NCBI GenBank assembly: GCA_022652945.1
Contig: JALCRV010000007.1
Coordinates: forward strand, 42,722-106,721
DNA from: Bacilli bacterium
GTDB taxonomy: Bacteria > Bacillota_I > Bacilli_A > RFN20 > CAG-288
Reading direction: 5' to 3'
DNA length: 64,000 nucleotides
Shown here in pieces: positions 19,359 to 36,030 of the stretch. Under the pieces are notes generated by a model. The model made no database searches. It was not told where the DNA came from and worked only from the letters and a program-made list of their open reading frames with translations. The position numbers were made by a program, and so were the translations under genes. Every line of letters starts with the position of its first letter. The stretch's first letter is position 1.

Positions 19359-21707
19359 ATGAAATCTGTTTCAGCCAGACGTCTATCGCCTTCCAAAAAG
19401 CTGACTCTTAAAGGCATGGTCCTGATTTCGAGTTTAGCTGTTGGCGCTCTTACCGGCTGCGGAAATGTAACTTCTTCAGTTGCCACTTCATCTTCAGTCG
19501 CTTCTTCAACGAATTCTATTGCTTCTTCCGCCACCTCTGCGACAGGGTCTTCTGCCGCTTCTTCCACGGTGGCTTCTTCTTCCGAATCAACGGTTTCTTC
19601 CCAGACCGAACGGAAGGTAAACACCTATCTCGACTGGACTTTTGACGAGCTGGCCGTGGGTGAAGCCGTTCCGGAATCTTATTACAATTATAAAGAAGGT
19701 GGCGGTTTTAAAGCCTCTTCTAAAGATGAGGACGGAAACGTTTGGGTCCAGTGTGCCGATGTCAACACTGGCTCTATGTGGGGAATGATGGTCCAAGCCC
19801 CGAAGGATGCGAACGGAAAAGATGTCTCTTTGAAAGACTTCTGTATTTCTTTCTCGACACGTTATCCTGATGGAAACTATACGACTGATGGCGATGGAGG
19901 CATTGCCTTATTAGCCAGCAGTCTATACGGACGTTATGACTTGGCTGTTCATAATAACGTAGCAGCTGGCGGAGAAGACTCACAAGTTTCCTTATGGCAC
20001 GCTATGGACGTTGACGGGGGACCTTTTGCCACCACACTTCATAATACGGACTGGGGCGAAAGGGGCTCAAGAGTCGGCTCGATAAGCTTGTACAGTGAAT
20101 TGGTTTATAATTTCACGGTTTGCGGACGTTATCAAACGCCGGACCAAGATGGCAACGAGTTTATGACATTATATGTTTTCTTAGGCGATAAGTTGATCAT
20201 AGAACAGAAAGATATCGCTTATTGGGAAGGGAACTTTGGCCTCCGTGGGTATATATCTCCTTGGGAATATGGTGACTTCAAAGTTACTGATTTCCCGTTG
20301 GTCTGCCCGGATGGGATTGATCACTACAACGATAGCGGACTTAATGACCCGACGATCAATGAAACTCGTCTTCCGACTCCGGAAGTAACAATCAATGGCA
20401 CCACCGCATCGTGGGCAGCTATCGATGGAGCCTCAGGATACGAAGTTTACAATGGTGACACTAAACTCGCCAGAATTCATGAGACTTCATACTCTTTGGC
20501 CGGACTCACTGGAGATGGTTCTTTGAAAGTCCGGGCTCTTTCTTCCGGCTTCCCGATTAAGAACTCGGAATTTGGCCAAGCTACTTATGCGATGCCTCGG
20601 GCCTTAAATAAACCGGTGCTTACTCTTAATGAAAAGATTCTTTCATGGGCTGCTATCGACCACGCGACAGGCTACAAAGTCTATCATGATGGCACGGAGA
20701 TTGCTTCCATTGGGTCCGACGTCTTGACCTACGATATCAGCACTTATACTAAAGGGACTCTTGGCGTTAAAGCTATAGGTGATGGTTCCTTCTATCTCGA
20801 TTCGGAAATCGGGACTTATGATTTGATTGAAACCTTGCCGGCCCCCAAGATTGTCTACGATGGCACTAACCTTACTTGGGCTGCTGTCGAGGGTGCGACT
20901 AAATATGAGGTTTATTTCAAAGATGCCAAGATTGCTGATACGACTGACTTACTATATAAAGTAACTTCAACTGAAATCGGAAAGTATCAAGTAAAGGCAA
21001 TCGGCGATGGCGGAATCAAGACATATGATTCGGCTCTTTCCAACTCTTGGGCTTACCGTGAAATCGCTTCGTATGCCTCCCATAATTTCAAGGGTTTGGC
21101 AGTCGGTGCGGCCTCTACATTGCCTTGGGGCGATCCGGATGTCTACACCATTGCTGCTCAAGAAACTGACCATTCCTGGGCCACCGGTCCAGATGCCACC
21201 AAAGAGTGGGCTGGCGTCTTCTTCCCGGCAAAGGTTCAGGACAGCGCTGGAAATTGGAACAATTTAAGCGAATATGCTTATACGGTTACCTTCCGTCTGC
21301 CTACAGCCGCAGATGATGGAAACAACGTATTCCAAATTCTTTATTCTACCGGTACGGTCAGATATGCAGCTGAGATTGTGATGAGCGGTGCCACTTCTAG
21401 TTTGAACATCTATGCTGCAAATCACATTGGTGATGCCTTCAATGCTGATTTGGGTGGAAAACTAACCAGTTTGGATCTAAAAGACGATGTGGCATATAAG
21501 TTTACAGTCTTCGTTCGTAACCTCGGTGATGGAAATTGTCGAATGACTTGCTTCATTGACAATGTCTGTGCAATTGATATTCCATCTACTGCCATGTTAA
21601 CCGGCGATTTCGGACTAGCTTGTCGCAATGCGACCCCGGCCCAATTCACCGATATCGCTGTTACTGATATCCCTTTGATCGGTCCTGACGGGGTCGATCG
21701 TTATTAA
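19359..21707 (+). CDS. Large surface lipoprotein, probable glycan-binding protein
   Basis: Secreted lipoprotein of 782 residues; signal peptide with an unusually long basic N-terminus and lipobox LTGC (Cys34), then a ~50-residue Ser/Ala/Thr linker. Residues about 88-325 form a beta-sandwich module closely related to the first module of the lipoprotein at 45623 (shared GRYD, WGERGS/WGDRGS, FGLRG and VCPDGI.HY). Residues about 335-585 contain three short Fn3-like repeats with recurring WAAIDGA/WAAVEGA. A second sandwich of the same kind fills the C-terminus, ending PLIGPDGVDRY. No catalytic residues recognised. Ends at a strong terminator. Role as surface glycan binder is inferred. Confidence 0.7.
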   Translation: MKSVSARRLSPSKKLTLKGMVLISSLAVGALTGCGNVTSSVATSSSVASSTNSIASSATSATGSSAASSTVASSSESTVSSQTERKVNTYLDWTFDELAVGEAVPESYYNYKEGGGFKASSKDEDGNVWVQCADVNTGSMWGMMVQAPKDANGKDVSLKDFCISFSTRYPDGNYTTDGDGGIALLASSLYGRYDLAVHNNVAAGGEDSQVSLWHAMDVDGGPFATTLHNTDWGERGSRVGSISLYSELVYNFTVCGRYQTPDQDGNEFMTLYVFLGDKLIIEQKDIAYWEGNFGLRGYISPWEYGDFKVTDFPLVCPDGIDHYNDSGLNDPTINETRLPTPEVTINGTTASWAAIDGASGYEVYNGDTKLARIHETSYSLAGLTGDGSLKVRALSSGFPIKNSEFGQATYAMPRALNKPVLTLNEKILSWAAIDHATGYKVYHDGTEIASIGSDVLTYDISTYTKGTLGVKAIGDGSFYLDSEIGTYDLIETLPAPKIVYDGTNLTWAAVEGATKYEVYFKDAKIADTTDLLYKVTSTEIGKYQVKAIGDGGIKTYDSALSNSWAYREIASYASHNFKGLAVGAASTLPWGDPDVYTIAAQETDHSWATGPDATKEWAGVFFPAKVQDSAGNWNNLSEYAYTVTFRLPTAADDGNNVFQILYSTGTVRYAAEIVMSGATSSLNIYAANHIGDAFNADLGGKLTSLDLKDDVAYKFTVFVRNLGDGNCRMTCFIDNVCAIDIPSTAMLTGDFGLACRNATPAQFTDIAVTDIPLIGPDGVDRY

Positions 21708-21715: not shown

Positions 21716-21754
21716 CTGAAGGGAGGATCTTACTGGCCTCCCTTCAGTTTTTTT
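21716..21754 (+). terminator. Rho-independent terminator
   Basis: Perfect 11-bp stem CTGAAGGGAGG / CCTCCCTTCAG (21716-21726 and 21737-21747) with a 10-base loop, followed by seven T. It ends the glycan-binding lipoprotein transcript. Confidence 0.9.
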
Positions 21755-21784
21755 AAAGATTGAAGCGGTTTAAAATAACCTCTT

Positions 21785-21874: not shown

Positions 21875-22942
21875 ATGGAAGAAATGGATGACAAGCTTTA
21901 CCACTCCTACGATATTGAAACACGTTCTATTTCCCCAGAGAACCCAACTGGCAATGCCGGACAAGGCGGAATGAGTGAAATCCCAGCTGAAGAGTTTCTC
22001 ACACATCCTGCTCGGGAGTTGGGGCTTGGCTATAAAATTCGCCCTTTTGTCAATATCAAGGCAGGGAGCAAGACAACCCTAGCTGATTTTTCCGGCATGG
22101 GAATGATTAGGCATATCTGGATGGTCAATTCCTCTCCGCGTACCAGGGATTTAATTCTCCGCATATATTTTGATGGTGTCTTATGTGTGGAAACTCCTCT
22201 CGGCGATTTCTTCTTTAACGGTTGGGATTATTATCAGTTGATTAACAGCCGATATGTGGCAGTCAATCCTGCTAAAGGTTATAACTGCTTCTGGCCGATG
22301 CCATTTAGAAAAGGCTTTTCTTTTACTTTAGAGAACCGGGGTAAGGAAGATGAAGTCCTTTATTATCAGATTGACTTCCAACTGCGGAATATTGAAAAAA
22401 ACGATTTATATTTTCATGCGCAGTTTGCTCGCACAAACCCACTTAAAGAAAAGGAAGACTTTGTCATTCTCGACACAGTAAAGGGAAAAGGAAAATTGGT
22501 GGGGATCTATTTAGCTTATCAAGCTTTCAATACCGGCTGGTGGGGCGAAGGGGAAGTAAAAATGTTTTTGGATGATGATGGCAAATTTCCGACTTATTGT
22601 GGAACAGGGACCGAAGATTATTTCCTTGGCGCATACAATTTTGAGAACTGGAAGAACCATTCTTACGAGAATTTTTCTTCGCTTTATAGCGGGTTTTGTA
22701 AAGTGAATAGCGATGTGATCTATAACTGCCAAAGTCGCTTTGGAATGTACCGTATCCATGAAGAAGATCCCGTTTATTTTAAGAGAAGGATTAAGGTCAC
22801 CATCCAATCGCTTGGTTGGCAAAGCGAAAGACGTTTCCATCCACAAAAAGACGATCTAGCAGCTGTAGCTTTCTATTATCTAGAGAAACCTGGAATTCAA
22901 TGCTCAAGGCTTCCTGATAACGATAGTTGTCAGACAAATTAA
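21875..22942 (+). CDS. GH172 (DUF2961) alpha-D-furanosidase
   Basis: Cytoplasmic enzyme of 355 residues in the DUF2961/GH172 family, recognised from its opening ETRSISPENPTGNAGQGGM, the LADFSGMGMIRHIWM strand, the FFNGWDYYQ segment and the acidic motifs WGEGEVKMF (Glu225/Glu227) and GTEDYF (Glu247). The latter two fit the paired catalytic Glu of the family. Characterised GH172 enzymes are difructose dianhydride I synthase/hydrolase (alpha-D-fructofuranosidase) and exo-alpha-D-arabinofuranosidases. First gene of an operon: 20 bp later comes L-fucose/D-arabinose isomerase, then transporter set 2. That neighbour favours D-arabinose as the released sugar, by inference. Confidence 0.85.
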   Translation: MEEMDDKLYHSYDIETRSISPENPTGNAGQGGMSEIPAEEFLTHPARELGLGYKIRPFVNIKAGSKTTLADFSGMGMIRHIWMVNSSPRTRDLILRIYFDGVLCVETPLGDFFFNGWDYYQLINSRYVAVNPAKGYNCFWPMPFRKGFSFTLENRGKEDEVLYYQIDFQLRNIEKNDLYFHAQFARTNPLKEKEDFVILDTVKGKGKLVGIYLAYQAFNTGWWGEGEVKMFLDDDGKFPTYCGTGTEDYFLGAYNFENWKNHSYENFSSLYSGFCKVNSDVIYNCQSRFGMYRIHEEDPVYFKRRIKVTIQSLGWQSERRFHPQKDDLAAVAFYYLEKPGIQCSRLPDNDSCQTN

Positions 22943-22962
22943 GAAAGGAAAAACAAAATATT

Positions 22963-24717
22963 ATGAAAATGAAAATCGGCATTCGCCCTATTATCGATGG
23001 GAGACGGAAGGGAATCAGGGAAAGTTTGGAAGGTTTGACGATGGCTATGGCCGAAAAGGCTAAAGCTTTGATAGAAAAGAACTGCTTTTATCTTGATGGG
23101 ACTCCAGTTCAATGTGTGATTGCTGACACGACCATTGGTGGCAACAAGGAATCTGCTTTGTGCCGGGAAAAATTCTCCAAGGAAAATGTAATTGCTACTT
23201 TATCCGTTACATCGTGCTGGTGCTATGGTACCGAAACAATGGATACCGATCCTTTGGACTTGAAGGCTGTTTGGGGTTTGAACAGTCCTTCAAGGCCGGG
23301 TGCCGTTTATTTAGCGGCCGTGATGGCCGCTCATGCCCAACTTGGCTTACCGGCTTTTGCCATCTATGGAAAAGATGTGCAAAAACCTGAAGAAGAGATT
23401 CCTTCTGACGTTGCTGAACAAATTATAATTTTCTGCCAGATGGCCGCTGGGATCGGGGAAATGAGGGGCAGGGCCTATGTCAATATAGGCGGGGTTGCTA
23501 TGGGTATCATGGGCTCTTATTGCGATATAAGTTTTTTCAAAGATTACCTTGGGATGCGGACAGAATTCGTCGATATGTCCGAGGTCAAGAGAAGACTGGA
23601 ATTAGGGATTTTTGATAACAACGAATTTAAGAAAGCCTTAATTTATGTAAAAGAAAATTTAAAAGAAGGATTCGATAAGAATTGCAAGCCAAAGTCGCGT
23701 GAAGAGAAAGATGCCGATTGGGAGACCGTCGTTAAGATGACTTTAATTGTCCGCGACCTCATTATCGGAAATACAAAATTAGCTAAAGACGGCTGGATTG
23801 AAGAATCTAACGGACATGATGGGCTCCTTGGAGGCTTCCAAGGACAACGGCAGTGGACCGACTTTATGCCTAACGGCGATTTTACTGAAGCTATCCTGAA
23901 CTCTTGTTTTGATTGGAACGGAATCAGGGCACCGCTAACCTTAGCAACCGAGAACGATACTCTTAACGGCATATCGATGCTCTTTGGACGTATGGCTACC
24001 GGTGGGGCTGCTCTATTTGCCGATGTGCGGTCTTTTTGGAATGAGGAATCAATCGAAAAATTCACGGGTGTCAAGGTCCAAGGCATGGCTAAACAAGGTG
24101 TCATCCATCTTATCAATTCTGGTTCCGCTTGTTTAGATGCGATTGGTTGTTGTAAAGACAAAGACGGGATGCCGATTATGAGAAGATGGTGGGAAACAAC
24201 CAAAGATGACGTTTCTTTATACCTAAAAAAGACTGTCTGGTGCCCCGCTGATTTAGACTATTTCCGTGGCGGTGGTTATTCCTCTCGGTTTGAAACGGAA
24301 GCTGAGATGCCAATTACGATGATTAGAATTAACATTGTCAAAGGCATCGGACCCACGATGCAGCTGGCGGAAGGCTACACTGTAAAACTACCGACAAAAG
24401 CCGCAGATGAAATTTGGAAGATTACGGATTATACTTGGCCTTCGACTTTTGTCACTCCGATTTTAAAAGATAAATACGGTTTCCGCTCCGTCCATCAGTT
24501 TATGTCCTGCTGGGGGGCTAATCATACGGCGATGGTTTACGGCCATGTCGGAAGGGAATTAATCGCATTAGCTTGTATGCTAAGAATTCCTGTCGTTCTC
24601 CATAATGTTGATGCAGATCAGATTTTCGCGCCTAGGAGTTTTTTAAGCTTCGGTCAAGCTGGCAGCGATGATAGTTATTTCAATGCCTGCCGAGCTTATG
24701 GGCCTTTATATAAATAA
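22963..24717 (+). CDS. fucI: L-fucose isomerase / D-arabinose isomerase
   Basis: Manganese-dependent aldose-ketose isomerase, 584 residues, close to E. coli FucI over its whole length (IGIRPIIDGRRKGIRESLEG start, SCWCYGTETMD, GFQGQRQWTD, FRGGGYSSRF, YGPLYK end). Metal/catalytic residues Glu330 (ATEND), Asp354 (FADVRSFW) and His521 (WGANHT) correspond to E. coli Glu337, Asp361 and His528 with a constant offset. ATG 22963 is preferred, since the earlier in-frame start lies inside the GH172 gene. FucI acts on L-fucose and also converts D-arabinose to D-ribulose. No fuculose/ribulose kinase or aldolase is in the window. Confidence 0.95.
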   Translation: MKMKIGIRPIIDGRRKGIRESLEGLTMAMAEKAKALIEKNCFYLDGTPVQCVIADTTIGGNKESALCREKFSKENVIATLSVTSCWCYGTETMDTDPLDLKAVWGLNSPSRPGAVYLAAVMAAHAQLGLPAFAIYGKDVQKPEEEIPSDVAEQIIIFCQMAAGIGEMRGRAYVNIGGVAMGIMGSYCDISFFKDYLGMRTEFVDMSEVKRRLELGIFDNNEFKKALIYVKENLKEGFDKNCKPKSREEKDADWETVVKMTLIVRDLIIGNTKLAKDGWIEESNGHDGLLGGFQGQRQWTDFMPNGDFTEAILNSCFDWNGIRAPLTLATENDTLNGISMLFGRMATGGAALFADVRSFWNEESIEKFTGVKVQGMAKQGVIHLINSGSACLDAIGCCKDKDGMPIMRRWWETTKDDVSLYLKKTVWCPADLDYFRGGGYSSRFETEAEMPITMIRINIVKGIGPTMQLAEGYTVKLPTKAADEIWKITDYTWPSTFVTPILKDKYGFRSVHQFMSCWGANHTAMVYGHVGRELIALACMLRIPVVLHNVDADQIFAPRSFLSFGQAGSDDSYFNACRAYGPLYK

Positions 24718-24726
24718 CGAGGTTTT

Positions 24727-24912
24727 ATGGCATATTTCTTTCGCGCCGCTGTCATTATCTTAGCCCTTAGTCTCCTGCTTCTTTTCATCGAGGTCCCGGG
24801 GACAATCGGCTTTAAAGTTACGGTGGTTTCTATCCTTGTTTCACTATTTGCTTCAATTATCAGCGGTATATATTTACGAAAGAAAAGAACGGAGGGGGAA
24901 AATATAAAATGA
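24727..24912 (+). CDS. Two-helix membrane microprotein linked to transporter set 2
   Basis: A 61-residue protein: AYFFRAA, a first hydrophobic helix, a short PGT turn, a second helix ending IISGIYLRKKR, and a basic tail. GAGG precedes the ATG. It begins 9 bp after fucI and overlaps the binding-protein start by ATGA, so it is translationally coupled to transporter set 2. Homologous in pattern to the microproteins at 8060 and 45310, but here it lies before the transporter genes rather than after them. Confidence 0.8.
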   Translation: MAYFFRAAVIILALSLLLLFIEVPGTIGFKVTVVSILVSLFASIISGIYLRKKRTEGENIK

Positions 24913-26876
24913 AAATCAGCAAAGCAAAATTCTTATTTCTAAGTCTTTTGTTAGTGTTTTCCGCCAGCGGGTGTGGAACCCAATCTACCTCAAGTGCTGT
25001 CTCCACGGGGAGTCAGAATCAGAGTGGCTCAGTTTCTACTGGAACCAGAGCGGGAACGGTCTTCCGCCTTGCCCGAACTTGGGACCGCACCGGTATCCGG
25101 TACCACTATAATTCCGGCTCCAATATCGGTGCCTTAGCATGGCTTTCTTGCGAAGGGCTCGTCCAATATGTTCGGACCACCGACGAGCTTTTCTATATGT
25201 TGGCTGAAAGTATCGACCATCTTCCGGATCACACGTCTTTGATTCATCTTAGGCATGGTGTTAAATGGCATGATGGTCACGAATTTACCGCAGATGATGT
25301 CCTTTCTTATTATGGAATTCAATTTACGACAGTCACTAATTATCTGGCTAAAGAGATGGAAAAAGTCGATGAATATACGGTGAAAATGACATGGAAGACC
25401 TGGATGGAGCCAACTGATAAAACTAAAACTTTGATGATGGCTCAGGATAAAGTCGGGACCGTTCCTTATTCGGAATTCAAAGAGTACGTAGATACAGCTC
25501 GCAATATTCTAAAGAACCAAGCCAGTTGTAAAGATGGGTATTTTGGCTGGGCACCTTACGGCAAAGTAAACTCTGCTTCCGACGACACGAAATACAATGA
25601 CAACTATAAGAAATTTATGGCACATAAACCGGCGGTTTTCTGCGGGACTGGACCCTATAAGCTTTCGAAGTTGACCCAGACACAAATGATTTTGGTTAAG
25701 AATGAAGACTATTATTTTGCGGATAAGATTCCTTTCGAAAAAGTCCTCGCCTACAATATTGCCGATCTTTCGACTATTTATAACATGTTGCTTACGGGTA
25801 AATTGGATTATCAGGACGGTTTCGCCCCCGATACGACGATTGATGAAATTACTTCGACTAATCCGACAATGATCCATTTGAAGGCTTACGACCCTGCGGG
25901 TGTTGGGATACTTTTTAACCTCGAAAAGACCTCGCTTTGGACAGATAAAGTCCGCGAAGCTTTCTTATATCTCTTCGATCGTGAGGAGATGAAAAACTCC
26001 GCTAATAAATACGCTGTGACTTCATATTATCCGGTGATGGGAATGGTTTCGAGCGAAGCGAAAAAATTTATCTCTGAATCAGATTTTAAGGGCCTTCCGC
26101 AATACTCTCACGATGCACAGAAAGCGGCCAGCTTATTAAAGGAAGCAGGTTGGAGCCAACAGAGCGGGGAATGGTATGACCAAAATGGTAACCAGGTCAG
26201 CTTGACTTTGGGATATGATTCCACCAATGCAATCATGTCTTCCTTAGCGGAGGCTACCCAAGGGGGGCTGAAGAATTTCGGAATTAATTGTGAGCTTAAG
26301 AGAGCCGCTGACTGGGGAACGTGGAACCAATTAGCCTCGGCGGAGAATTCTTATTACGATTTTGTGGTCAATTGGACTGATTTAGGATTGAACTTTTCGC
26401 ATCCCAAAGGCTGCTATGATTTTTTCTTTAATGATCAAAACGGCCCTATTATCCATTTCCCACGCATTACTCAGGACGATGTAGCCAAGGGAACTATTCC
26501 TGGTTATGAAGTCGGCAATATCAATCTCCATCTGCCTAAACATGACGGAAGCGGGTATTTCGATGCTTATGACTATCTTTCGCGCATGTACGCCATGGAT
26601 GAAACTGAACTTGCCTCAGCCACTGCTGATTTGCTTTATGGAGTTAGCAATCTAAAGGTTGGAGTTCAATTTTTCCAAAATGTTTCAGGTGGATTTTACA
26701 ATAGCGGCACCATCGGCAATCTTCCTTTGGAATCTTACTGGAAGACCGAACGCAATGTGCCTTATATGACGGAAATGTACTCGGATGATTATTATGCTCT
26801 TGCCCGTTGTTCGTTGGAATTCTGTCAGCAAATACCTTTTATTTACCAATACACCGATGCTGGCCTAAGCCAGTAA
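24909..26876 (+). CDS. Opp/Dpp-type ABC transporter substrate-binding lipoprotein (set 2)
   Basis: SBP_bac_5 lipoprotein, 655 residues; lipobox ASGC (Cys22) and a Ser/Thr-rich linker, so anchored at the cell surface. Family motif WHDGHEFTADDVLSYY, then WKTWMEPTDKTK and GTGPYKLSKL. Much closer to the set 3 protein (shared VFRLARTWDRTGIR..., IDRDEM-type segments such as LFDREEMKNSANKYA) than to set 1. GGAGGGGG precedes the ATG. Downstream of GH172 and FucI, it probably delivers the oligosaccharide that GH172 cleaves. Confidence 0.9.
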   Translation: MKISKAKFLFLSLLLVFSASGCGTQSTSSAVSTGSQNQSGSVSTGTRAGTVFRLARTWDRTGIRYHYNSGSNIGALAWLSCEGLVQYVRTTDELFYMLAESIDHLPDHTSLIHLRHGVKWHDGHEFTADDVLSYYGIQFTTVTNYLAKEMEKVDEYTVKMTWKTWMEPTDKTKTLMMAQDKVGTVPYSEFKEYVDTARNILKNQASCKDGYFGWAPYGKVNSASDDTKYNDNYKKFMAHKPAVFCGTGPYKLSKLTQTQMILVKNEDYYFADKIPFEKVLAYNIADLSTIYNMLLTGKLDYQDGFAPDTTIDEITSTNPTMIHLKAYDPAGVGILFNLEKTSLWTDKVREAFLYLFDREEMKNSANKYAVTSYYPVMGMVSSEAKKFISESDFKGLPQYSHDAQKAASLLKEAGWSQQSGEWYDQNGNQVSLTLGYDSTNAIMSSLAEATQGGLKNFGINCELKRAADWGTWNQLASAENSYYDFVVNWTDLGLNFSHPKGCYDFFFNDQNGPIIHFPRITQDDVAKGTIPGYEVGNINLHLPKHDGSGYFDAYDYLSRMYAMDETELASATADLLYGVSNLKVGVQFFQNVSGGFYNSGTIGNLPLESYWKTERNVPYMTEMYSDDYYALARCSLEFCQQIPFIYQYTDAGLSQ

Positions 26877-26888
26877 AATTGATGGACA

Positions 26889-27932
26889 ATGAAAAAATTA
26901 TTAGGTAGAATTTGGTATTTTATCAAGGAAATTTTCTATAAATATCGCTTTTTCTGGAAGCGCGTAGGTTTTTCATTGATTACTTTAGTCTTGGCGGTTA
27001 TTTTCGGGTTCGTAATCATCAAATTAATGCCTGGGGATGTGGTAGCTATGTATGCTAGAAACTTGGCGAATCAAAGAAAAATCTCTTATGAAGATGCTTA
27101 CCGTATGGCAGTACAATTGCTTAACTACGATCCACAGGAATCGGTCTTTAATCAGTTAGGCAAATATCTTAATGGCTTATTCCATGGGAATTTAGGGACT
27201 TCTATGTACCGCGATGATGTCTCAGCCCTGACAGTGATTCGCGATTTCTTGCCCTGGACGCTTTTGATATCGGGAATTTCTTTGCTTTTGAGCTTCTTTC
27301 TCGGAGTGGTCATGGGAGGAAAAATGGCTGCTAAAAGAAAGGGCTTTGGCAACGCGATGCGCAATACCTACGTCGTGGTCTCCGGAGCAATGCCGGATTA
27401 TATTTGGGGGTTGCTGTTAATCTATTTTTTAGCAGTCCGGAAATCTTGGTTCCCTATGGGCGGTTCATATGATTTGCTGCTGGAAGACGAAGGCATGCCT
27501 TGGTTGATCAATGTTCTTTATCATGCGGCCTTGCCTATCATCGCGTACACGATTGTCCAAACTGGGAGTTGGGCTTTATCCATGAGGGGAAGCGCTATCG
27601 GGGTTTTAGGTGAGGATTATATCTACGCCGCGAGAGTCCGTGGTGTTTCGGAAAGACGCATCCGTTCACAATATTTGACCAGAAATGCCTTGCTGCCTTT
27701 AGTCACTTCTTTCGCTGTTTCCTTCGGCGCTATCTTCGGCGGCAGCCCGTTGATGGAAAATATCTTCAATTATCCTGGGTTCGGCGCCGAATTCAACACT
27801 GCCATCGGAGATCGGGATTACTTTTTGATTCAAGGTCTGATGGTCTTTATGTCTTTTATGATTATTTTGGCTAATTTTATAGCTGATTCCGTCTACTCCC
27901 TCGTCGATCCGCGCGTCAGGAGGGAAAACTGA
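26889..27932 (+). CDS. Opp/Dpp-type ABC transporter permease, OppB-like (set 2)
   Basis: 347-residue permease. First helix after a basic N-terminus, external loop with KLMPGDVVAMYARNLANQRK, and BPD_transp_1 domain with EAA loop EDYIYAARVRGVSERRIRSQ then NALLPL. Lies 12 bp after the binding protein with a weak ribosome site and 1 bp before the second permease. Confidence 0.9.
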   Translation: MKKLLGRIWYFIKEIFYKYRFFWKRVGFSLITLVLAVIFGFVIIKLMPGDVVAMYARNLANQRKISYEDAYRMAVQLLNYDPQESVFNQLGKYLNGLFHGNLGTSMYRDDVSALTVIRDFLPWTLLISGISLLLSFFLGVVMGGKMAAKRKGFGNAMRNTYVVVSGAMPDYIWGLLLIYFLAVRKSWFPMGGSYDLLLEDEGMPWLINVLYHAALPIIAYTIVQTGSWALSMRGSAIGVLGEDYIYAARVRGVSERRIRSQYLTRNALLPLVTSFAVSFGAIFGGSPLMENIFNYPGFGAEFNTAIGDRDYFLIQGLMVFMSFMIILANFIADSVYSLVDPRVRREN

Positions 27933-27933
27933 T

Positions 27934-28836
27934 ATGAAGGCAAACATGGTTGATTTGAAAAGAGAAATAAAACTATTCGGTCAGGAACTGCTCGAAAAAT
28001 TAAAGTCTGGTTTTAAAACACTCTTTGCAAATTCAAAATCGACAGCTGGAACGTTGATTATGGTGTTTTTTATTTTTTTCGCTACTTTTGGTCCTTTAAT
28101 TTGGCCCTACGATAACTCCACCGATGCTCTTAATAAATTCCTGACGCCTTCATGGGAACATATTCTAGGGACAGATGAACTGGGCAGGGATTTGTTCCGC
28201 CAGTTGGTCGATGGCTCCAGAGACGTGATGTCTATCGCCTTGCTAACTTCGATTTTCACTGTTTTTCTCGGAGTATTTTTAGGAATGTTATCCGGTTTAT
28301 TAGGCGGCTGGGCTGATAAAATTATCATGACAATTACCAATTTATTCCTCTCCATACCCTCCTTCCCAGCCTTACTGATGCTCTCTGCTTTTTTAAATAT
28401 CGACAATGCTTTTTCCTTCGCCTTGGTTCTTTCGATTTGGTCCTGGGCTGGCCTCGCTCGGGCAGTCCGTAGCCAGATAATTTCCTTGAAAGAAAGAGAT
28501 TTTATCTTGATTTGTAAAGTCATGAACGTTAACAAGATTCACATCATATTCTCTGAATTAATACCCAACCTCGCTAGTTATATCCTGATTAATTTCATCT
28601 TGATAATGCGCAATGCCATTATCGGCTCGGTCGGTATTATGATGCTCGGACTTGCATCTTTCCAACCTTCTAACTGGGGCGCGATGCTCTTCCGCGCTAA
28701 GGCAGTCATTACTTCTCCTAAGGCCATTTACCTTTTGATGAGCCCGATTGTGGCAATTACGCTTTTCCAAACCGGTGCTTTATTTTTAGCTAATGGTCTC
28801 GATGAGGCTTTAAATCCACGCTTGAGGAAAAACTAA
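27934..28836 (+). CDS. Opp/Dpp-type ABC transporter permease, OppC-like (set 2)
   Basis: 300-residue permease with the OppC layout: GPLIWPYDN after helix 1, LGTDELGRDLFRQL in the external segment, EAA loop at RDFILICKVMNVNKIHII, and C-terminus LANGLDEALNPRLRKN. AGGAGGG precedes the ATG. Confidence 0.9.
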   Translation: MKANMVDLKREIKLFGQELLEKLKSGFKTLFANSKSTAGTLIMVFFIFFATFGPLIWPYDNSTDALNKFLTPSWEHILGTDELGRDLFRQLVDGSRDVMSIALLTSIFTVFLGVFLGMLSGLLGGWADKIIMTITNLFLSIPSFPALLMLSAFLNIDNAFSFALVLSIWSWAGLARAVRSQIISLKERDFILICKVMNVNKIHIIFSELIPNLASYILINFILIMRNAIIGSVGIMMLGLASFQPSNWGAMLFRAKAVITSPKAIYLLMSPIVAITLFQTGALFLANGLDEALNPRLRKN

Positions 28837-28837
28837 C

Positions 28838-29827
28838 ATGGAAGACATTATTGTTTCATTTAAAGACGTCGTAATCGAATACCAGATGCGCCTTTATAAT
28901 CTACAGGCGATAAGGCATATTTCCATGGATATCCGGCGTGGGAAAATCACTTCCTTGGTCGGGGAATCTGGGAGCGGTAAAACGACTTTGGCAACCGCGG
29001 TTCTTAATTGCATCACCGAGCCGGGAGTCATCTCTAGTGGGAAGGTGGAATTTTATAGCCGAGATGGCAATAAATATGAAGTTGAGCAGATGACTAAGGA
29101 GGAAGTAAGGAAGTTCCGCTGGGCCAAAGTTTCAATGGTTTTCCAAGGAGCGCAGTCTTCTTTGAATCCTGTCATGACAATTTATGCTCAATTTAAGGAA
29201 ACCATGGCTGCTCATAATAAGAATGTCACCAAAGATGATGTTCTGAAAAAAGCCAAGGAAGTACTTTCGCTAGTAAATCTTTCCCCTGAAAGGATTCTTG
29301 GAATGTATCCGCACGAACTTTCAGGTGGAATGAAGCAGAGAGTAATGATTGCCTTTGCCTTGCTTTTAGATCCGGAAATGATTCTGCTTGATGAACCCAC
29401 GACGGCCCTGGATGTCATAACCCAGGAATACATTTTTTCCTTGCTGAAAAAGATTAACAAAGAAAAAGGTATCAGTATGATGTTGATGACCCACGATATG
29501 GGAATCGTCGCCAAGTATTCGGATTATTTAGGTGTTCTTTACGGAGGGCGACTCATGGAATATGGCACCACCGCCGAGGTGTTTAAGAAACGACTGCACC
29601 CTTATACGGCTGGCTTGATCCAAGCCACTCCTTCGCTTTTACTTCCGGTTTCCTCAATCAAGCCAATTGAGGGAAATCCACCAAATCTTCTTGCGCTTCC
29701 TCCCGGCTGCCCTTTTGCTCCCCGTTGTCCGCTTGCCCGTTCGGAATGCAATCAAAAAGAGTTTCCTTTAGTAGAAAAGGAAAAAGATCATTTTGTCAGC
29801 TGTCCATATGGAGATGAGAGAAAATGA
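28838..29827 (+). CDS. Opp/Dpp-type ABC transporter ATPase, OppD-like (set 2)
   Basis: 329-residue ATPase: Walker A GESGSGKTT, Q-loop FQGAQSSLNPV, signature LSGGMKQRV, Walker B MILLDEPTTALD and C-terminal Cys motif (CPFAPRCPLARSEC). Its stop overlaps the next start as ATGA. Confidence 0.92.
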   Translation: MEDIIVSFKDVVIEYQMRLYNLQAIRHISMDIRRGKITSLVGESGSGKTTLATAVLNCITEPGVISSGKVEFYSRDGNKYEVEQMTKEEVRKFRWAKVSMVFQGAQSSLNPVMTIYAQFKETMAAHNKNVTKDDVLKKAKEVLSLVNLSPERILGMYPHELSGGMKQRVMIAFALLLDPEMILLDEPTTALDVITQEYIFSLLKKINKEKGISMMLMTHDMGIVAKYSDYLGVLYGGRLMEYGTTAEVFKKRLHPYTAGLIQATPSLLLPVSSIKPIEGNPPNLLALPPGCPFAPRCPLARSECNQKEFPLVEKEKDHFVSCPYGDERK

Positions 29828-30834
29828 ATGAACCTTTAATGCAATTGAGAGACATTGACATGGTCTTTCAGAAAAAAGGAAAATTTTTGGAGCAGGAAAG
29901 ATCTTTTCATGTGCTTAAACAAATCAACCTTACCATCCAGGAAGGGGAAATCTTGGCCTTGGTCGGGGAATCGGGGTGTGGGAAAACGACCTTGGGTAAG
30001 ATTATAACGGGTCTTTTGCGCCCGACTAAAGGCGAAGTGATTTTTGAAGGCAAAAGCGTATATCATGCACTTGGAATCGGTGATAAAGAATATAAGGCTG
30101 GTGTGCAGTTTATCCAACAGGATTCCTATGCAGCTTTAAATCCGGTTAAAACGATCTATCAATCGCTAGCTGTCGCCATAAAAGTGGCAGAAAAGGGAAT
30201 TTCACGGCTGGAGATGGAAAAGAAAATGGTGGATTTGCTCGGAGAGGTCGGGCTTTTACCGGCAGAGATGTTTTTGAACAAATATCCTCATCAGATGTCC
30301 GGCGGCCAGCGCCAACGGGTGCTTATGGCCCGCGCTTTGGCTTTGCATCCAAAATTGATCGTTGCAGATGAACCGGTCAGCATGATAGATGTTTCGCTGC
30401 GTATTTCAATTCTGAACCTGATGATGAAACTCAACAAAGATAAAAAGATTTCCTTTGTATATATCACTCACGATTTATCTACCGCTCGCTATATAGCCTC
30501 CGAAGGAAGAATAGCCGTTATGTATTTAGGAGAAATAATGGAATTATCCCCTTTGGAGCCTCTGCTGGAAAAGCCTTTGCATCCTTATACCCAAGCCCTT
30601 CTTTCCGCTGTTCCGATCCCCGATCCGGAAATTGCTTCTAAACAGGGAGAAATCCCGATAAAAGGGATGAACCTACTTGATCTTGAACACCGTAATCGAG
30701 GCTGTCCTTTCTTCCAGCGTTGCCCTTATGCCAAGGCTGAATGTGAGAATACGCCGATCCCATATAAATTCTACGAAGGACGCGAGGTAAAATGCTTGCT
30801 CGATGAGCCGCCGATTTTCAAAAAATACTATTAA
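29824..30834 (+). CDS. Opp/Dpp-type ABC transporter ATPase, OppF-like (set 2)
   Basis: 336-residue ATPase: Walker A GESGCGKTT, FIQQDSYAALNPV Q-loop, signature MSGGQRQRV and the variant Walker B VADEPVSMIDVS. It lacks the charged insertion of the set 1 protein. C-terminal Cys motif CPFFQRCPYAKAEC. It is followed 28 bp later by the first of two GH32-like lipoprotein genes, so the operon probably continues. Confidence 0.92.
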   Translation: MNEPLMQLRDIDMVFQKKGKFLEQERSFHVLKQINLTIQEGEILALVGESGCGKTTLGKIITGLLRPTKGEVIFEGKSVYHALGIGDKEYKAGVQFIQQDSYAALNPVKTIYQSLAVAIKVAEKGISRLEMEKKMVDLLGEVGLLPAEMFLNKYPHQMSGGQRQRVLMARALALHPKLIVADEPVSMIDVSLRISILNLMMKLNKDKKISFVYITHDLSTARYIASEGRIAVMYLGEIMELSPLEPLLEKPLHPYTQALLSAVPIPDPEIASKQGEIPIKGMNLLDLEHRNRGCPFFQRCPYAKAECENTPIPYKFYEGREVKCLLDEPPIFKKYY

Positions 30835-30862
30835 TAATCTTAGATGGCTTAAGGAGGAAAAC

Positions 30863-32806
30863 ATGAAACAAAGAAGAAAAAAGCTCTGCCTTGGCTGGCT
30901 GGTTGCTTCGCTTCTGGCGAGCTGTGGGGAAGGCCAGTTGGCTTCCTCGGCGTTTTCCATAGGCTCCAGCGGTGTGTTTTCCTCTTTTTCATCCCTCGGC
31001 TCAATTGAAGCCGATAAAGAATTTTGGAACCAGACATATGCGGAAGATCAGACGTATGTCAGAAGCCAAGGAATTTACGCTTCGCGGAAAAAGGAACACT
31101 GGGAAAAAGGGACGTGGGTGGAGAAGGACTTTGTCGCTGCTGGCTCTCTCGAGAATAAAGAACTGGTGTCAACCTCAGCTACTCCCGGCGCTTGGCTTTT
31201 TACCTTACCTCAGGACGGAAAAGTGACAATTAAGGGAAAGTTTACTTTGTTAAACGGGAGAGGCACGGAAGTAGCTGGTTTTTATAATAACGAAAAAATT
31301 TATTCCTCGACTGTTTATTTTTCTTCTTTAAATCTTGAAGGCGGGGTAAATATTGAATTTGAAACCGAGGGAAAAGCTAATGAGAAAATAGCGTTAGTTT
31401 TTGTGGGGGAAGGAACAGCCTCTTTTTCTCCTATCGCCTCTTACGGGGTTAAGGAAAAACTCTATTCCGTTCCGAAATGGAACTTTTATGGTGATGTTCA
31501 TCCTTTTTATTACCAAGGGAAAATGTATATGTACAATCTTCAAGGATATTTAGAGGATGTCGGCAACGAAAGGTATTTATGGTGTCTTCATACTTCGAAG
31601 GATCTTTTCCACTATGCCGAAGAGGATTACCAGGTCTTTGATTTTGTTCATGACCATTACAATTCCACTCTTAGTGCTTACGATTCGATTTTTGATAAAA
31701 TTACTTTCCCGTACGGGAGCAGAGATATGTTCCTTTTCTACGACAAACTGGCTGACCGGTATGATTATATCGGCCTTTGTTACTACCAGGATTATTCATC
31801 TTGCCTCGGCATGCGCGTTTCCGATGATCCGGAAGGAATGTCCTGGTCGAATCCCATGTATTCTATCCGCGACTTTCCTGTGGATTGCGATCCGGAATGC
31901 ACGCAAGCGATGCTGATTGAGAACCGGTGGTATCTGTTGACCTCAGTATGGGGACAATCGATACATTCAGTGGGACGTCCATCATATTTGATTGGCGACG
32001 AGGGAAAACCTTTTGCGGAAAATGATTGGGCGAACAAAGAATTCCATTACTTGGATGGCGAAGATCTATGCGCAGCCCAATTGGTCAGATTGGAAGGGGA
32101 GGATAAAGACCGATATCAGATTTACGGATGGATTCCAAAGACTAGCTACGGCAACGATCAAGACATATATTTTAACGGGACCAGAGACCATGGCTTGTGG
32201 GGTGGAAACATCAATATGCCCCGCGAGATTTATGTCGGGGAAGAAGGCGAACTTTTCTCTCGGCTCGACGAAAAGGCCTCTCAACTTCTGAGTAGAGGCA
32301 ATCAGCTGGATTTGACTAAAACCGTTTCGGAAATCCGAGCTGGTTCCGGGAAGATTACCGAGGGACAAATCTACTTACAAAACCAAGGAGAAAACATTTT
32401 CCAAGTTTCCTCCATGAATTTTCAAAGAACCTTTATCGAGACTGATCTGGATATGAGTTCCGCTTCGGAAGCCGGGCTGATTTTGGATAACGGGGGAAAG
32501 TCATATCATTTCACTGTTCAAGATAAAGACGGTAAAGAAATGATTTCCATTTCCTGCCCAGATGATGCTGGACATCCTGTGGCCTCCAGTTTTGAAATCG
32601 GACCGTTAGATAAGTCTAAAGTAAATCTCAAAGTTATTTCTGACGGATCTTTAAGCGAAATGTATATCGATGGGAAATACGCTTTGACAGCAAGGATTTC
32701 AATGTTCAATCCTGATTTCCATCTCCAAGTTTATTCCAAAGGCCTTGCGGTATTTACTAATCTTCAGGTTAACAAACTTTCGACCGTTGATGACATTTTT
32801 GATTAA
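30863..32806 (+). CDS. Surface GH32-like lipoprotein, tandem copy 1 of pair A
   Basis: Lipoprotein glycosidase of 647 residues from ATG 30863, supported by AAGGAGGA at 30851-30858. Lipobox LASC (Cys21). Residues about 55-195 are an extra N-terminal beta-rich domain. The GH32-like propeller starts at FYGDVHPFYYQGKMY (Asp211 candidate nucleophile), with SRDMFLFYD (Asp288) and DPECTQAM (Glu345) matching stabiliser and acid/base; LWGGNINMPREI closes the propeller. A C-terminal sandwich ends the protein (NLKVISDGSLSEMYI). GDxHP in place of NDPNG marks a divergent GH32 subgroup; the substrate is unknown. Confidence 0.75.
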   Translation: MKQRRKKLCLGWLVASLLASCGEGQLASSAFSIGSSGVFSSFSSLGSIEADKEFWNQTYAEDQTYVRSQGIYASRKKEHWEKGTWVEKDFVAAGSLENKELVSTSATPGAWLFTLPQDGKVTIKGKFTLLNGRGTEVAGFYNNEKIYSSTVYFSSLNLEGGVNIEFETEGKANEKIALVFVGEGTASFSPIASYGVKEKLYSVPKWNFYGDVHPFYYQGKMYMYNLQGYLEDVGNERYLWCLHTSKDLFHYAEEDYQVFDFVHDHYNSTLSAYDSIFDKITFPYGSRDMFLFYDKLADRYDYIGLCYYQDYSSCLGMRVSDDPEGMSWSNPMYSIRDFPVDCDPECTQAMLIENRWYLLTSVWGQSIHSVGRPSYLIGDEGKPFAENDWANKEFHYLDGEDLCAAQLVRLEGEDKDRYQIYGWIPKTSYGNDQDIYFNGTRDHGLWGGNINMPREIYVGEEGELFSRLDEKASQLLSRGNQLDLTKTVSEIRAGSGKITEGQIYLQNQGENIFQVSSMNFQRTFIETDLDMSSASEAGLILDNGGKSYHFTVQDKDGKEMISISCPDDAGHPVASSFEIGPLDKSKVNLKVISDGSLSEMYIDGKYALTARISMFNPDFHLQVYSKGLAVFTNLQVNKLSTVDDIFD

Positions 32807-32815
32807 GGGGCAATT

Positions 32816-34831
32816 ATGAAAAGAAAACAAGGATGGACGTTAAGCATGGTTGGGTTATTGTTATTTTCCTGCGGGGAATCAGTTTCTTCCATAAACTCAT
32901 CGGGCTTTTCTTCCGATTCGGGGAGTATCGCTTCTTCTCAAAGCTCTTATGAAACATCCCAAGAGGATCAGTTTTTCAGTCAACTTTATCAACAAGAAAC
33001 AGCCAAAACTACCTTAGCCGATGATTGTCTGTCTTTTAGGGCTAGCGATGGTTATCTTTGTAACCAAACCCAAGGATATAATGGTTGGTCATATCTCTAT
33101 TACCAAGGAGAAGAGAAAAGGGCTTGCGAGTTTTCTAATGGTGCTTTTCGTGGCGGGGAAGTGAGTTTCACCGGTGAAAAGATTTCCTTCGGTCCTTCCA
33201 ATAAAGCTGTGCGCTCCTTTCAATTCTCCAAAAGCGGAAAAATTAAGTCTGATGGCTACGTATATATGGCTGAAAAAAACAATTGCGGTTGTCAGCTAGA
33301 AGTCTTTCTTGCGGGGGTCAAAGTGTTTCCTTTAGGAGACGCTTATTCAATCTCCGGTGGGGATGAAGAAGGGGTTTATTTTTCCTTTGACCTCGAGGTT
33401 AAAGAGGGTGAAACGCTCGATTTTGTCCTTTCTAGTAAAGAAAAAACTACTGTCGGCTTCAATCCACAAATTAACTTTGGCTCCGATAATAATGCTATCC
33501 ATCCGCAAAATGAAGAGGGATATTTTGGGGATGTGATTCCATATTACAAGTCGGATGAACACAAAATGTATTTATACTACATGACCGGTGATATATCCAA
33601 TCCGGCTAAACCGGTTATTTCTAATCATCTGGCAACATCTAGAGATCTTTTCCATTATCAGCATTTGGTCGATTTCGACAGCGATGAGGAAAAAAGCCAA
33701 AAATACGCTTCGATCGGGATGGATATGATCGGGGGGTTCTGCTATCGCTCAATCGGACCGGAAGCTAGGGATGCCAACGTTTTTGATTTTAAGACTTATC
33801 CTGAAGGATATCGTGATAACTTCCTTTTCTTCGATGAAGACAAACAAGTTTACCGTTATTTGTTTTTATGCTATATAAAAGCGAGCGGGATTATTTCTTG
33901 CGCCCTCGGCTTGATGACGAGCGATGATGCGAGTGGCAAGAGTTGGTCGACACCTATAAAGACCTTGAAAAAATATGCAAACTATCGACAACCAGAATGC
34001 CCCTTTGCTTGGAAAATTGGGAAGCGATGGTATCTTGGTTGCTCCTTATGGGGAAACAAGACCCATGGGGTCGGTCGGATGGAATACTATATGTGCCCGG
34101 AAGGGATGAGCCTGGATAACGTCAGCTTGAATGGGGTGGAAACTAGATATCTCGACGGAGAAGATTTGTGCGCAGGCCAAATGACTAAGGTTGGCCCTTA
34201 TTATATGATGTTCGGCTGGATTCCCAGTTATTTCGATTACGACTATTTTCCTGCCACCTATGTCTCACGCTTGTGGGGTGGAGATATTAACTTACCACGT
34301 CTAGTCTATCCTTCAGAGGATGGTACACTTTTTACAAGAATCGATTCGGTTCTTAAACGAAAAATTAAAAGGGGAAGGATTATCTCGGGACAAAAGCTAA
34401 ACATAGTGGGGACTTTTACTGCCGGGGAAAAAATAATCACTAACGAGGCGATTTCTTCTTTCTACGCCAAGATTTCCTATGTTCAGAAAAAGGTCGGAAC
34501 CTTTTCCTTCAACTTTACTCAGGGTGAAAAGAATTATTCCATTGAAATCATTAAAAGCAATGAGAAAATGACAATCGATGTGGTCTGCTTAGAAGACAGT
34601 GGACACACAGTTGCCAGTTCCTTTGACTTTCCCTTAACTGATAACGTGAACCTTGAGCTCACTTGCCAAGGCGGGTGCGTTGAATGCTACATCAATGATT
34701 CCTATTCGCTCTCGGCCAGAATATCTGCTAAAAAAGATTCCTTCACCAACTGTCGGGTGAAGGCAGACAGTGATTTAGAAATAAATTCTTTAAATATTTA
34801 TAAACTGCAGGACCTTCAAAACTTGGTCTGA
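32816..34831 (+). CDS. Surface GH32-like lipoprotein, tandem copy 2 of pair A
   Basis: 671 residues, lipobox LFSC (Cys19), Ser-rich linker. Same architecture as its upstream neighbour: N-terminal beta domain, then propeller with YFGDVIPYYKSDEHKMYLYY (Asp239), YRDNFLFFD (Asp334) and QPECPFAWK (Glu394), LWGGDINLPRLV, and a C-terminal sandwich. Nine base pairs separate it from the previous gene. The two probably act at the surface on different linkages or ends of the same glycan. The transcript ends before a convergent LacI gene; no strong terminator seen. Confidence 0.75.
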   Translation: MKRKQGWTLSMVGLLLFSCGESVSSINSSGFSSDSGSIASSQSSYETSQEDQFFSQLYQQETAKTTLADDCLSFRASDGYLCNQTQGYNGWSYLYYQGEEKRACEFSNGAFRGGEVSFTGEKISFGPSNKAVRSFQFSKSGKIKSDGYVYMAEKNNCGCQLEVFLAGVKVFPLGDAYSISGGDEEGVYFSFDLEVKEGETLDFVLSSKEKTTVGFNPQINFGSDNNAIHPQNEEGYFGDVIPYYKSDEHKMYLYYMTGDISNPAKPVISNHLATSRDLFHYQHLVDFDSDEEKSQKYASIGMDMIGGFCYRSIGPEARDANVFDFKTYPEGYRDNFLFFDEDKQVYRYLFLCYIKASGIISCALGLMTSDDASGKSWSTPIKTLKKYANYRQPECPFAWKIGKRWYLGCSLWGNKTHGVGRMEYYMCPEGMSLDNVSLNGVETRYLDGEDLCAGQMTKVGPYYMMFGWIPSYFDYDYFPATYVSRLWGGDINLPRLVYPSEDGTLFTRIDSVLKRKIKRGRIISGQKLNIVGTFTAGEKIITNEAISSFYAKISYVQKKVGTFSFNFTQGEKNYSIEIIKSNEKMTIDVVCLEDSGHTVASSFDFPLTDNVNLELTCQGGCVECYINDSYSLSARISAKKDSFTNCRVKADSDLEINSLNIYKLQDLQNLV

Positions 34832-34880: not shown

Positions 34881-35864
34881 TTACTTGCCGGGATGTCTGA
34901 TAATCAGCTCCGGGTTTATTTTTATATGCAAAGCCTTATCCGCCGGGAGCTTATTCTTTTCTGCGATTCGCGAAATGGTTATCTTAGAAACCTGGGTTGA
35001 GATATCTTCGATCGGCTGGGCAATCGTCGTGATATTTAAAAGTTTCATCCAGTCTAGATTATCGAAAATAATAACCTTGATTTTATCTTGGCTAAGACCC
35101 ATCTCCTGAAAAGCTGAAAGGGTATCCTGACCGAAAGGCCCAGTCCCAGCGATAATTCCATCTGGCTGACATTCATTGATCAGCTTTTTAATTTCAAAAA
35201 TAATGGATTGATCCGGACGGAACAATTGAATCAGATTCTCATCGACGGGGATATCTCCTTCACTAAGTGCCTGAATATAGCCTTTGGGACGATCCGGAGT
35301 GAAATCTACTTTAGCGGAAAGCAAAAGGATTCTTTTGCAGCCTTCCTGCATTAGTTCTTTAGTGGCTAAATAAGCTCCGTAAGCATCGTTGACTTCGAAA
35401 GAATCCACATCCTCATAAGCACAACGATAAACCTGTAAAACAGGGACTTTTCTCTTTAAAGCTATATTGATAAATCTTCGATTCTTATTTGAAGTCGGAG
35501 TAAAGATAATAGCATCGACATTATTCGAAAGCAGTTGAGCAAAATTATCTCCTTCTGTCTCCGAGTCCTCGAAAGAGTAGAGAATTAAAACTTTATAATC
35601 GTATTTCTTAAACTCGACAATCAGATTCTTCACAACCAGGGAGTACCAGAAGTTACCGATATCAGGAATGATGATTCCAATCGTCTTAGAGACCCCGGTC
35701 TTTAAAGTCTTTGCGTTTGTGTCGACAATATAACCAAGTTCATCCGCGGCTTTAAGAATCATATTCTTCTTTTCAGCTGAAACATATCCGGTGTTGCAGA
35801 GTGCACGGGAAGCCGTAGCGATTGAAACATTGCAAGCCAATGCTACATCTTTAATTGTCGGCAT
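34881..35864 (-). CDS. LacI-family transcriptional regulator 2
   Basis: 327-residue repressor: helix-turn-helix TIKDVALACNVSIATASRAL (residues 3-22), hinge region and effector-binding domain. GGGGAGG precedes the ATG. Divergent from the GH32-like gene at 36055, with operator-like AACGTTTACA sequences at both promoters (35917-35930 and 36031-36043), implying that it represses both itself and the pair B/transporter set 3 operon. Its 3' end is duplicated as a fragment at 16303-16345. Confidence 0.9.
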   Translation of the reverse strand: MPTIKDVALACNVSIATASRALCNTGYVSAEKKNMILKAADELGYIVDTNAKTLKTGVSKTIGIIIPDIGNFWYSLVVKNLIVEFKKYDYKVLILYSFEDSETEGDNFAQLLSNNVDAIIFTPTSNKNRRFINIALKRKVPVLQVYRCAYEDVDSFEVNDAYGAYLATKELMQEGCKRILLLSAKVDFTPDRPKGYIQALSEGDIPVDENLIQLFRPDQSIIFEIKKLINECQPDGIIAGTGPFGQDTLSAFQEMGLSQDKIKVIIFDNLDWMKLLNITTIAQPIEDISTQVSKITISRIAEKNKLPADKALHIKINPELIIRHPGK

Positions 35865-35994: not shown

Positions 35995-36023
35995 TTGCGC
36001 TTTTCAGTCCTCGATGTTATATT
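35995..36023 (+). promoter_or_regulatory. Promoter of GH32-like pair B and transporter set 3
   Basis: TTGCGC (35995-36000), 17-bp spacer, TATATT (36018-36023). The operator-like site at 36031-36043 covers the expected start site. Confidence 0.6.
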
Positions 36024-36030
36024 GTGTGTG

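Follow-up and report, generated by a model that had tools for sequence, protein, structure and literature searches.

Within a 64,000-nt stretch of DNA from a Bacilli bacterium (GCA_022652945.1, contig JALCRV010000007.1, positions 42,722 to 106,721; hereafter the window, whose own numbering we use), a full-length gene for a glycoside hydrolase of family GH172 (DUF2961) lies upstream of a full-length fucI gene, with 20 bp between the two. We conclude that the products of these genes very probably constitute a predicted cytosolic pair for scavenging D-arabinose, in which GH172 would release the sugar and FucI would isomerise it. This reading is based upon the adjacency of the genes, the families of their products, the intact catalytic residues, residue N255 of GH172, the grouping of GH172 with the enzyme ExoMA1, and the enrichment of D-arabinose-type genes beside GH172.

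An adjacent, full-length GH172-FucI gene pair

The GH172 gene (21875..22942, plus strand, 355 aa) is in frame, ends with its stop codon at 22942, and is the sole DUF2961 match in the 2.09-Mb source genome; its product scores 259.5 bits against the DUF2961 model, for which the cut-off is 27. The ATG of fucI follows at 22963, and the gene (22963..24717, plus strand) specifies a protein of 584 aa, counted from that ATG, that is a predicted D-arabinose (L-fucose) isomerase made up of three Fucose_iso domains. FucI scores 864.9 bits against model NF008220 (above the cut-off of 775) and 785.6 bits against TIGR01089 (below the cut-off of 850). Residues E330, D354 and H521 of FucI are kept and align with E342, D366 and H532 of 3a9r, which we take to be the catalytic residues of that enzyme. 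These findings confirm the original prediction, made from the window alone, that a GH172 gene precedes, by 20 bp, a gene for full-length FucI with its three catalytic residues. No lipobox pattern was found in the first 60 residues of GH172, nor in FucI.

GH172 as a predicted ExoMA1-type exo-alpha-D-arabinofuranosidase

Amongst solved protein chains, the closest to the window GH172 is 8ic8 (ExoMA1, an exo-alpha-D-arabinofuranosidase), at 333 bits; the further solved relatives are 4kq7 (118 bits), 8ah3 (96 bits) and 7v1v, a difructose dianhydride I (DFA I) enzyme (76 bits). According to published work, fructofuranose finds room for its hydroxymethyl group at Gly299 of alphaFFase1, whereas in ExoMA1 Asn253 keeps that group out (PMC10509167). 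Residue N255 of the window GH172 falls in the same alignment column as both of these residues. The catalytic residues described for alphaFFase1, namely the acid/base E270, the nucleophile E291 and in addition D292 (PMC8605356), are matched in the alignment by E225, E247 and D248 of the window enzyme. The position of alphaFFase1 W298 is occupied by a tyrosine (Y254), and two features of the alphaFFase1/DFA I enzyme are absent from the window GH172, which has N255 in place of Gly299 and a gap at the +1 residue Lys147.

The original prediction had proposed placing this GH172 in a family tree. In a midpoint-rooted tree of 31 rows, in which characterised enzymes are represented by partial sequences (alphaFFase1 by three pieces), the window GH172 branches apart from the DFA I enzyme; it groups with ExoMA1 in a set of 19 supported at 100/100, and alphaFFase1 is amongst the other 12. 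Another arabinofuranosidase, DgGH172c (8ah3), falls on the alphaFFase1 side of the tree and has a cysteine at the switch position, and asparagine at this position therefore points to arabinofuranose within the ExoMA1 clade yet is not required across the family. Three of the related loci described below depart from asparagine and had no D-arabinose gene that we could find nearby: L114, where the switch residue is glycine, is one case in the expected direction, and L154 and L159 each have a cysteine. We consider it likely, from these sequence comparisons, that the window GH172 acts as an exo-alpha-D-arabinofuranosidase of the ExoMA1 type.

D-arabinose genes accompany GH172 in genomes of the class

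Our widest genome sample consisted of 395 genomes drawn from the class, in which FucI and DUF4185 were counted using Pfam models. GH172 is found in 16 of these genomes (in three, G248, G252 and G391, as fragments) and FucI in seven, six of which are amongst the 16 with GH172. The Fisher p value of this co-occurrence is 1.1e-8, or 2.3e-7 without the source genome, and is a guide only, as the genomes are kin by descent; by their table labels, the six shared genomes span five families. In the seventh FucI genome, G443, FucI lies near a contig end and GH172 was not found. The DUF4185 model matches in 24 genomes, seven of them with GH172 (p 9.8e-6), and the 11 DUF4185 matches over 150 bits fall in six genomes, every one of which has GH172. 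Either FucI or a short SIS protein (at least 40% identity) is present in 11 of the 16 GH172 genomes and in 1 of the 379 others; if any SIS match at E 1e-12 is accepted, the counts become 11/16 and 11/379 (p 3.4e-12). The SIS match in G412 was listed with one internal TGA, the frame itself (L151) being open for 201 codons, and G056 has both isomerases, on separate contigs.

The same association is seen in gene neighborhoods. We scored the fetched stretches around 17 GH172 loci, drawn from the sets for the order and the class, with neighbor genes as queries, the SIS and PfkB queries having been taken from these very loci, so that the locus count is not blind. FucI is in the fetched stretch of five loci, and an AraB-type ribulokinase adjoins it in four of these (L146 and L155, called by model, and L149 and L158, called by similarity); the fifth, L113, has a ribulose-phosphate 3-epimerase and a PfkB kinase in place of ribulokinase, the kinase scoring 269 bits as a ribokinase, below the cut-off of 300. 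A short SIS protein is found in a further six loci. In five of them (L115, L147, L148, L151 and L157; the sixth is L112) a PfkB kinase directly adjoins the SIS protein, which is KdsD-like and about 200 aa long. Both SIS proteins that were scored match best to the KdsD/GutQ/KpsF arabinose-5-phosphate isomerases, with scores below cut-offs set for longer proteins, and all four of the SIS-adjoining PfkB kinases that were scored pass the ribokinase cut-off. Judged by these matches, PfkB and the short SIS protein beside GH172 are a probable phosphorylate-then-isomerise route for D-arabinose. FucI and SIS occur together in none of the 17 loci, and six loci have neither (L114, L152, L153, L154, L156 and L159), L156 having GH183 and a ribulokinase. 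FucI with ribulokinase, and a kinase with an arabinose-5-phosphate isomerase, each take D-arabinose to D-ribulose 5-phosphate, and we know of no other aldose that would suit both routes. The occurrence of both isomerase routes beside GH172 is consistent with D-arabinose as the sugar that GH172 would release.

GH183 genes occur in six of the 17 loci (L115, L147, L155, L156, L157 and L158). Two proteins encoded downstream of the FucI-GH172 genes of L149 (L149:7020-11442), 584 and 537 aa long, match DUF4185 weakly, at 40 and 45 bits against a cut-off of 39.5, and are candidate distant relatives of GH183.

Substrate of FucI

The closest solved chain to FucI is 3a9r, named as a D-arabinose isomerase (708 bits), followed by chains named as L-fucose isomerases (4c21, 684 bits; 1fui, 659 bits). 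Taken alone, this nearest-relative comparison is weak evidence as to the substrate. Models for the L-fucosidase families GH29 and GH95, both of which match in control genomes, found no match in the source genome (other fucosidase families were not searched), and the L-fucosidases elsewhere that would have spoken for L-fucose were in this respect not seen. Class-II aldolases, the family of L-fuculose-phosphate aldolase, have three matches in the genome, all on other contigs and none within the window; one corresponds to AraD in a fusion protein, and a second comes after a kinase and a gene that we read by eye as RhaB and RhaA. L119:8927-11260 encodes an FGGY-type kinase fused to AraD; a XylB and an AraA-like gene (the latter by eye) come next.

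The claim of the original prediction that the sugar passed from GH172 to FucI is D-arabinose rather than fructose is thus supported by the nearest solved relatives, by N255 and by the tree, and also by the lack of a GH29 or GH95 match and by the two alternative D-arabinose routes that co-occur with GH172 in the class.

An Opp-type importer in the same gene run

From 21875 to 34831 the plus-strand genes are separated by short gaps only, a 61-aa hydrophobic open reading frame (24727..24912, plus strand), whose stop overlaps the next ATG, filling the gap between FucI and the importer; for these reasons the run is probably one operon. The importer, which we term system B, is an Opp-type (SBP_bac_5) ATP-binding cassette (ABC) system encoded on the plus strand, comprising a predicted lipoprotein solute-binding protein (24909..26876; profile match and lipobox), two permeases (26889..27932 and 27934..28836) and two ATPases of the oligo_HPY type (28838..29827 and 29824..30834). 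Its parts resemble those adjoining GH172 in L112, the nearest syntenic locus, where the GH172 is 53% identical and where an Opp-type importer and a divergent GH32-fold lipoprotein recur with it. The solute-binding protein is 62% identical to that of L112, and those of the window's two other systems are 48% and 31% identical to it; the corresponding values are 69% against 59% and 45% for permease 1, and 69% against 54% and 50% for permease 2. The ATPases are not discriminating, ATPase 1 being 58-59% identical to its L112 counterpart in all three window systems.

A LacI-family regulator (34881..35864, minus strand) stands at the end of the cluster. Upstream of GH172, a predicted lipoprotein of unassigned family (19359..21707, plus strand), which has a 34%-identical counterpart in the L112 cluster, is probably on a separate transcript, because a GC-rich hairpin with a T-run follows it at about 21721-21756 (seen by eye; the terminator scanner did not list it). 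A LacI-type operator common across the window was considered and rejected: a pattern built from the site at 21760 itself had 25 matches where 39 were expected by chance, with no enrichment.

Divergent GH32-fold proteins

Two GH32-like proteins complete the run. The first (30803..32806, plus strand; likely start 30863) is a divergent GH32-fold predicted lipoprotein with the triad D231, D308 and E365, and is 48% identical to its homologue in L112. Its AlphaFold2 model (mean predicted local distance difference test score 79.5; predicted template-modelling score 0.81) has GH32 levanase and invertases as its nearest PDB folds, with E values down to 1e-20, identities of 13-16%, and template-modelling scores by query length of 0.41-0.47 for most top rows. 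Relatives are few: amongst 7994 scored candidates, 51 proteins were found at E 1e-3, and in 18 of the 51, counting 30803 itself, identity is 28% or more across at least 73% of the query. Across 28 aligned rows, D231, R307, D308 and E365 do not vary and C366 hardly does, giving 30803 a GH32 fold with the Asp, Arg-Asp and Glu-Cys triad. The beta-fructofuranosidase motifs NDPNG and FYQ are replaced in 30803 by GDVHPF and MYNL. The second protein (32816..34831, plus strand) is 31% identical to 30803 and has no Pfam match; its N-terminus is lipoprotein-like (FSCG, by eye), although the lipobox pattern, which is carried by proteins including those at 19359, 24909, 30803 and 37668, did not match. Protein 30803 is predicted to be a surface furanosidase acting ahead of import. 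The idea that 30803 is a hidden GH183 was rejected, as it has no Pfam match and hhalign against four DUF4185 proteins aligned 20 leader residues only, at a probability of 17.9.

As the original prediction had it, the GH32 protein encoded near the gene pair at 17385-18884 (minus strand) is orthodox, having both the NDPNG and FYQ motifs; the GH32-like proteins within the GH172 gene run are instead 30803 and 32816, which are non-orthodox.

Other genes of the window are of similar kinds. Two more divergent GH32-like genes (35995-39218) adjoin a third Opp-type importer (39237-45313), and this set (35995-45313) may serve a different furanosyl glycan in parallel. The large predicted lipoproteins at 19359-21707 and 45623-48115 are related, match no family over its cut-off, and are each near one Opp system. 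Directly after a GH32-like gene at 48180, a 403-aa protein (49688-50899) has a weak fucose isomerase C-terminal match, below the cut-off, and scores 59 bits as a sulfoquinovose isomerase (cut-off 700); a longer protein with the same two weak matches is encoded beside an FGGY kinase at L162:2236-3636.

Which glycan is used

The original prediction had named arabinogalactan or lipoarabinomannan as a possible substrate, a glycan of D-arabinose, mannose and rhamnose, from the presence nearby of GH38 (13489-16275) and GH78 (54460-56679, about 30 kb from FucI). Our results do not support this. Neither GH38 nor GH78 was matched in L112, the nearest syntenic relative, and we set both aside as parts of the system; a 60%-identical copy of GH78 lies, moreover, beside the L-arabinose genes of the genome. 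Furthermore, the source genome, which is 92.7% complete, has no match to GH183 (DUF4185), a model that matches 24 of the 395 class genomes, nor to GH116, whose model matches 3 of 14 control genomes, and the absence of both is likely to be a true one. As an Opp-type importer and a GH32-fold lipoprotein recur with GH172 in L112, the depolymerising step may be a new one.

Proposed pathway and alternatives

In the pathway that we propose, the surface GH32-fold lipoproteins 30803 and 32816 may act on a D-arabinose-containing glycan or oligosaccharide, fragments of which the Opp-type system (24909-30834) would import. It is a well-supported prediction that cytosolic GH172 removes terminal alpha-D-arabinofuranose from the imported oligosaccharides, and a supported one that FucI isomerises the freed D-arabinose to D-ribulose, which a kinase encoded elsewhere would phosphorylate to D-ribulose 5-phosphate. 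A wider proposal, of a third means of degrading D-arabinan, can be made tentatively, as possible rather than probable. beta-D-Arabinofuranose is beta-D-fructofuranose minus its hydroxymethyl arm, and the GH32-fold lipoproteins may have arisen from beta-D-fructofuranosidases to cut D-arabinofuranosides, replacing GH183 and GH116 and feeding the Opp importer, GH172 and FucI; within the class, two interchangeable routes would then serve the released sugar, one through FucI and then mostly ribulokinase, the other through a ribokinase-like kinase paired with an arabinose-5-phosphate isomerase of the short kind.

Several observations weigh against D-arabinose scavenging. FucI enzymes use both L-fucose and D-arabinose, so that sequence does not settle the substrate of FucI. 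An isomerase and a kinase would be expected of a known D-arabinan degradation cluster; here the isomerase is present, and the cluster and the window as a whole lack a D-ribulose kinase, all six FGGY matches of the genome being elsewhere. The cluster holds GH32-fold proteins, and the closest folds of 30803 are fructan enzymes. ExoMA1 retains a weaker alpha-D-fructofuranosidase activity, so asparagine is no absolute bar (PMC10509167), alphaFFase1 cleaves both sugars (PMC8605356), and the alphaFFase1 operon of Bifidobacterium dentium likewise combines GH32, GH172 and ABC genes (PMC8605356). Finally, we surveyed named genomes of many phyla, taking the best 80 of 588 confirmed ExoMA1-like loci, many of them on short contigs (median locus 20.9 kb), and found FucI in the fetched stretch of only two of the 80 (L005 and L019), together with GH116 in four, GH183 in one (138 bits) and a ribulokinase match in four, strong in two; L005 and L019 themselves supplied the GH116 query and one ribulokinase query. 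The fullest named case is L005, a Neglectibacter metagenome-assembled genome in which FucI, GH172 and GH116 stand side by side. The rarity of FucI in this survey means that the FucI link belongs to part of the ExoMA1-like clade and not to the clade in general.

A rival reading is a fructan or difructose-dianhydride pathway: GH172 would open alpha-D-fructofuranosides, beta-D-fructofuranosides would be cut by the GH32-like lipoproteins, and FucI would be an unrelated neighbor. The levanase and invertase folds of 30803, the presence of 30803 and 32816 in the same gene run, the orthodox GH32 at 17385 and the B. dentium operon, which includes LacI (PMC8605356), all favor it. So do genes that precede the window start by about 1.4-6 kb (L116:14041-18587), where two PfkB kinases, a D-lyxose isomerase-like gene and an FBA-type class II aldolase make a possible fructose or mannose route; the fructokinase-like PfkB scores 248 bits, below the cut-off of 450. 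We nonetheless regard this pathway as improbable, since asparagine, not glycine, occupies the position that lets in the hydroxymethyl group of fructose, the +1 Lys147 falls in a gap, the enzyme is much closer to 8ic8 than to 7v1v, GH172 is present in six of the seven FucI genomes of the class, and fructose would have no need of FucI. D-arabinose is the better reading of the two. It is more improbable still that FucI serves L-fucose, with GH172 a bystander or releasing another sugar: FucI does exceed the cut-off of the L-fucose isomerase model NF008220, but the genome lacks GH29 and GH95 matches (within the limit of that search), the window lacks a class-II aldolase, and the FucI-linked kinases that were scored (L146, L155 and L019) reach 642-733 bits as ribulokinases and 25-48 bits as L-fuculokinases. 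A closer competitor, though one we hold to be unlikely, is that the pair handles free or small D-arabinosides, such as D-arabinosyl metabolites, with no polymer and no strict D-arabinan pathway. Opp-type importers take small oligomers, the GH183 endo-D-arabinanase and GH116 are unmatched in the genome, and GH172 of the ExoMA1 clade is spread over many phyla, all of which favor this alternative; the GH32-fold lipoproteins of the gene run, one of which recurs beside the 53%-identical GH172 of L112, suggest instead that an extracellular step precedes the predicted cytosolic D-arabinose pair.

Comparison with known systems

D-arabinan is a wall component of mycobacteria and their relatives, and few families of enzymes that cut it have been described. 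The nearest published parallel is the cluster of Microbacterium arabinogalactanolyticum (ExoMA1, GH172; ExoMA2, GH116; EndoMA, GH183), in which GH172 is paired with a putative isomerase and kinase (PMC10509167). The two systems are alike in a predicted-cytosolic ExoMA1-type GH172, an ABC importer and a downstream isomerase for D-arabinose. They differ in that the source genome has no GH183 or GH116 match, the importer of the window is of the Opp/SBP_bac_5 type and that of Microbacterium of the SBP_bac_8 type, and the window adds GH32-fold predicted lipoproteins and has no kinase in its cluster. By this comparison, the layout of the window appears to match the Microbacterium scheme, with other parts at the first step.

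GH172 and fucose isomerase are also clustered in PUL42 of Dysgonomonas gadei (DgGH172a/b/c, DUF4185 and fucose isomerase), where the isomerase is strongly expressed on D-arabinan and is the most abundant carbohydrate-active enzyme (PMC10115798). PUL42 is a Bacteroidota polysaccharide utilisation locus with DUF4185 enzymes, whereas in the window DUF4185 is unmatched and the predicted import is by an ABC system. The alphaFFase1 operon of B. dentium, which specifies a DFA I synthase/hydrolase, brings together LacI, GH32-type, GH172 and ABC genes as the window does (PMC8605356); its GH172, however, lies on the opposite side of the tree and has Gly299 and Lys147, and fucose isomerase is not mentioned in the available text of that article. 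The D-arabinose isomerase 3a9r and the window FucI belong to one family, are full-length and keep the catalytic residues. We take 3a9r to come from Bacillus pallidus, and we know of no glycosidase neighbor for its gene.

Amongst the open-access literature titles that we searched, we found none on the kinase/arabinose-5-phosphate isomerase route beside GH172 and none on GH32-type D-arabinanases. The GH32-fold lipoproteins are candidates for new D-arabinan-active enzymes, and the two alternative D-arabinose routes beside GH172 are a genomic marker that could separate D-arabinose from fructose GH172 loci. The present case would add to known D-arabinose scavengers a genome of 2.1 Mb that lacks a GH183 or GH116 match. 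GH172-isomerase clusters for D-arabinan have already been published, in D. gadei and in Microbacterium, and the system of the window is a variant of these.

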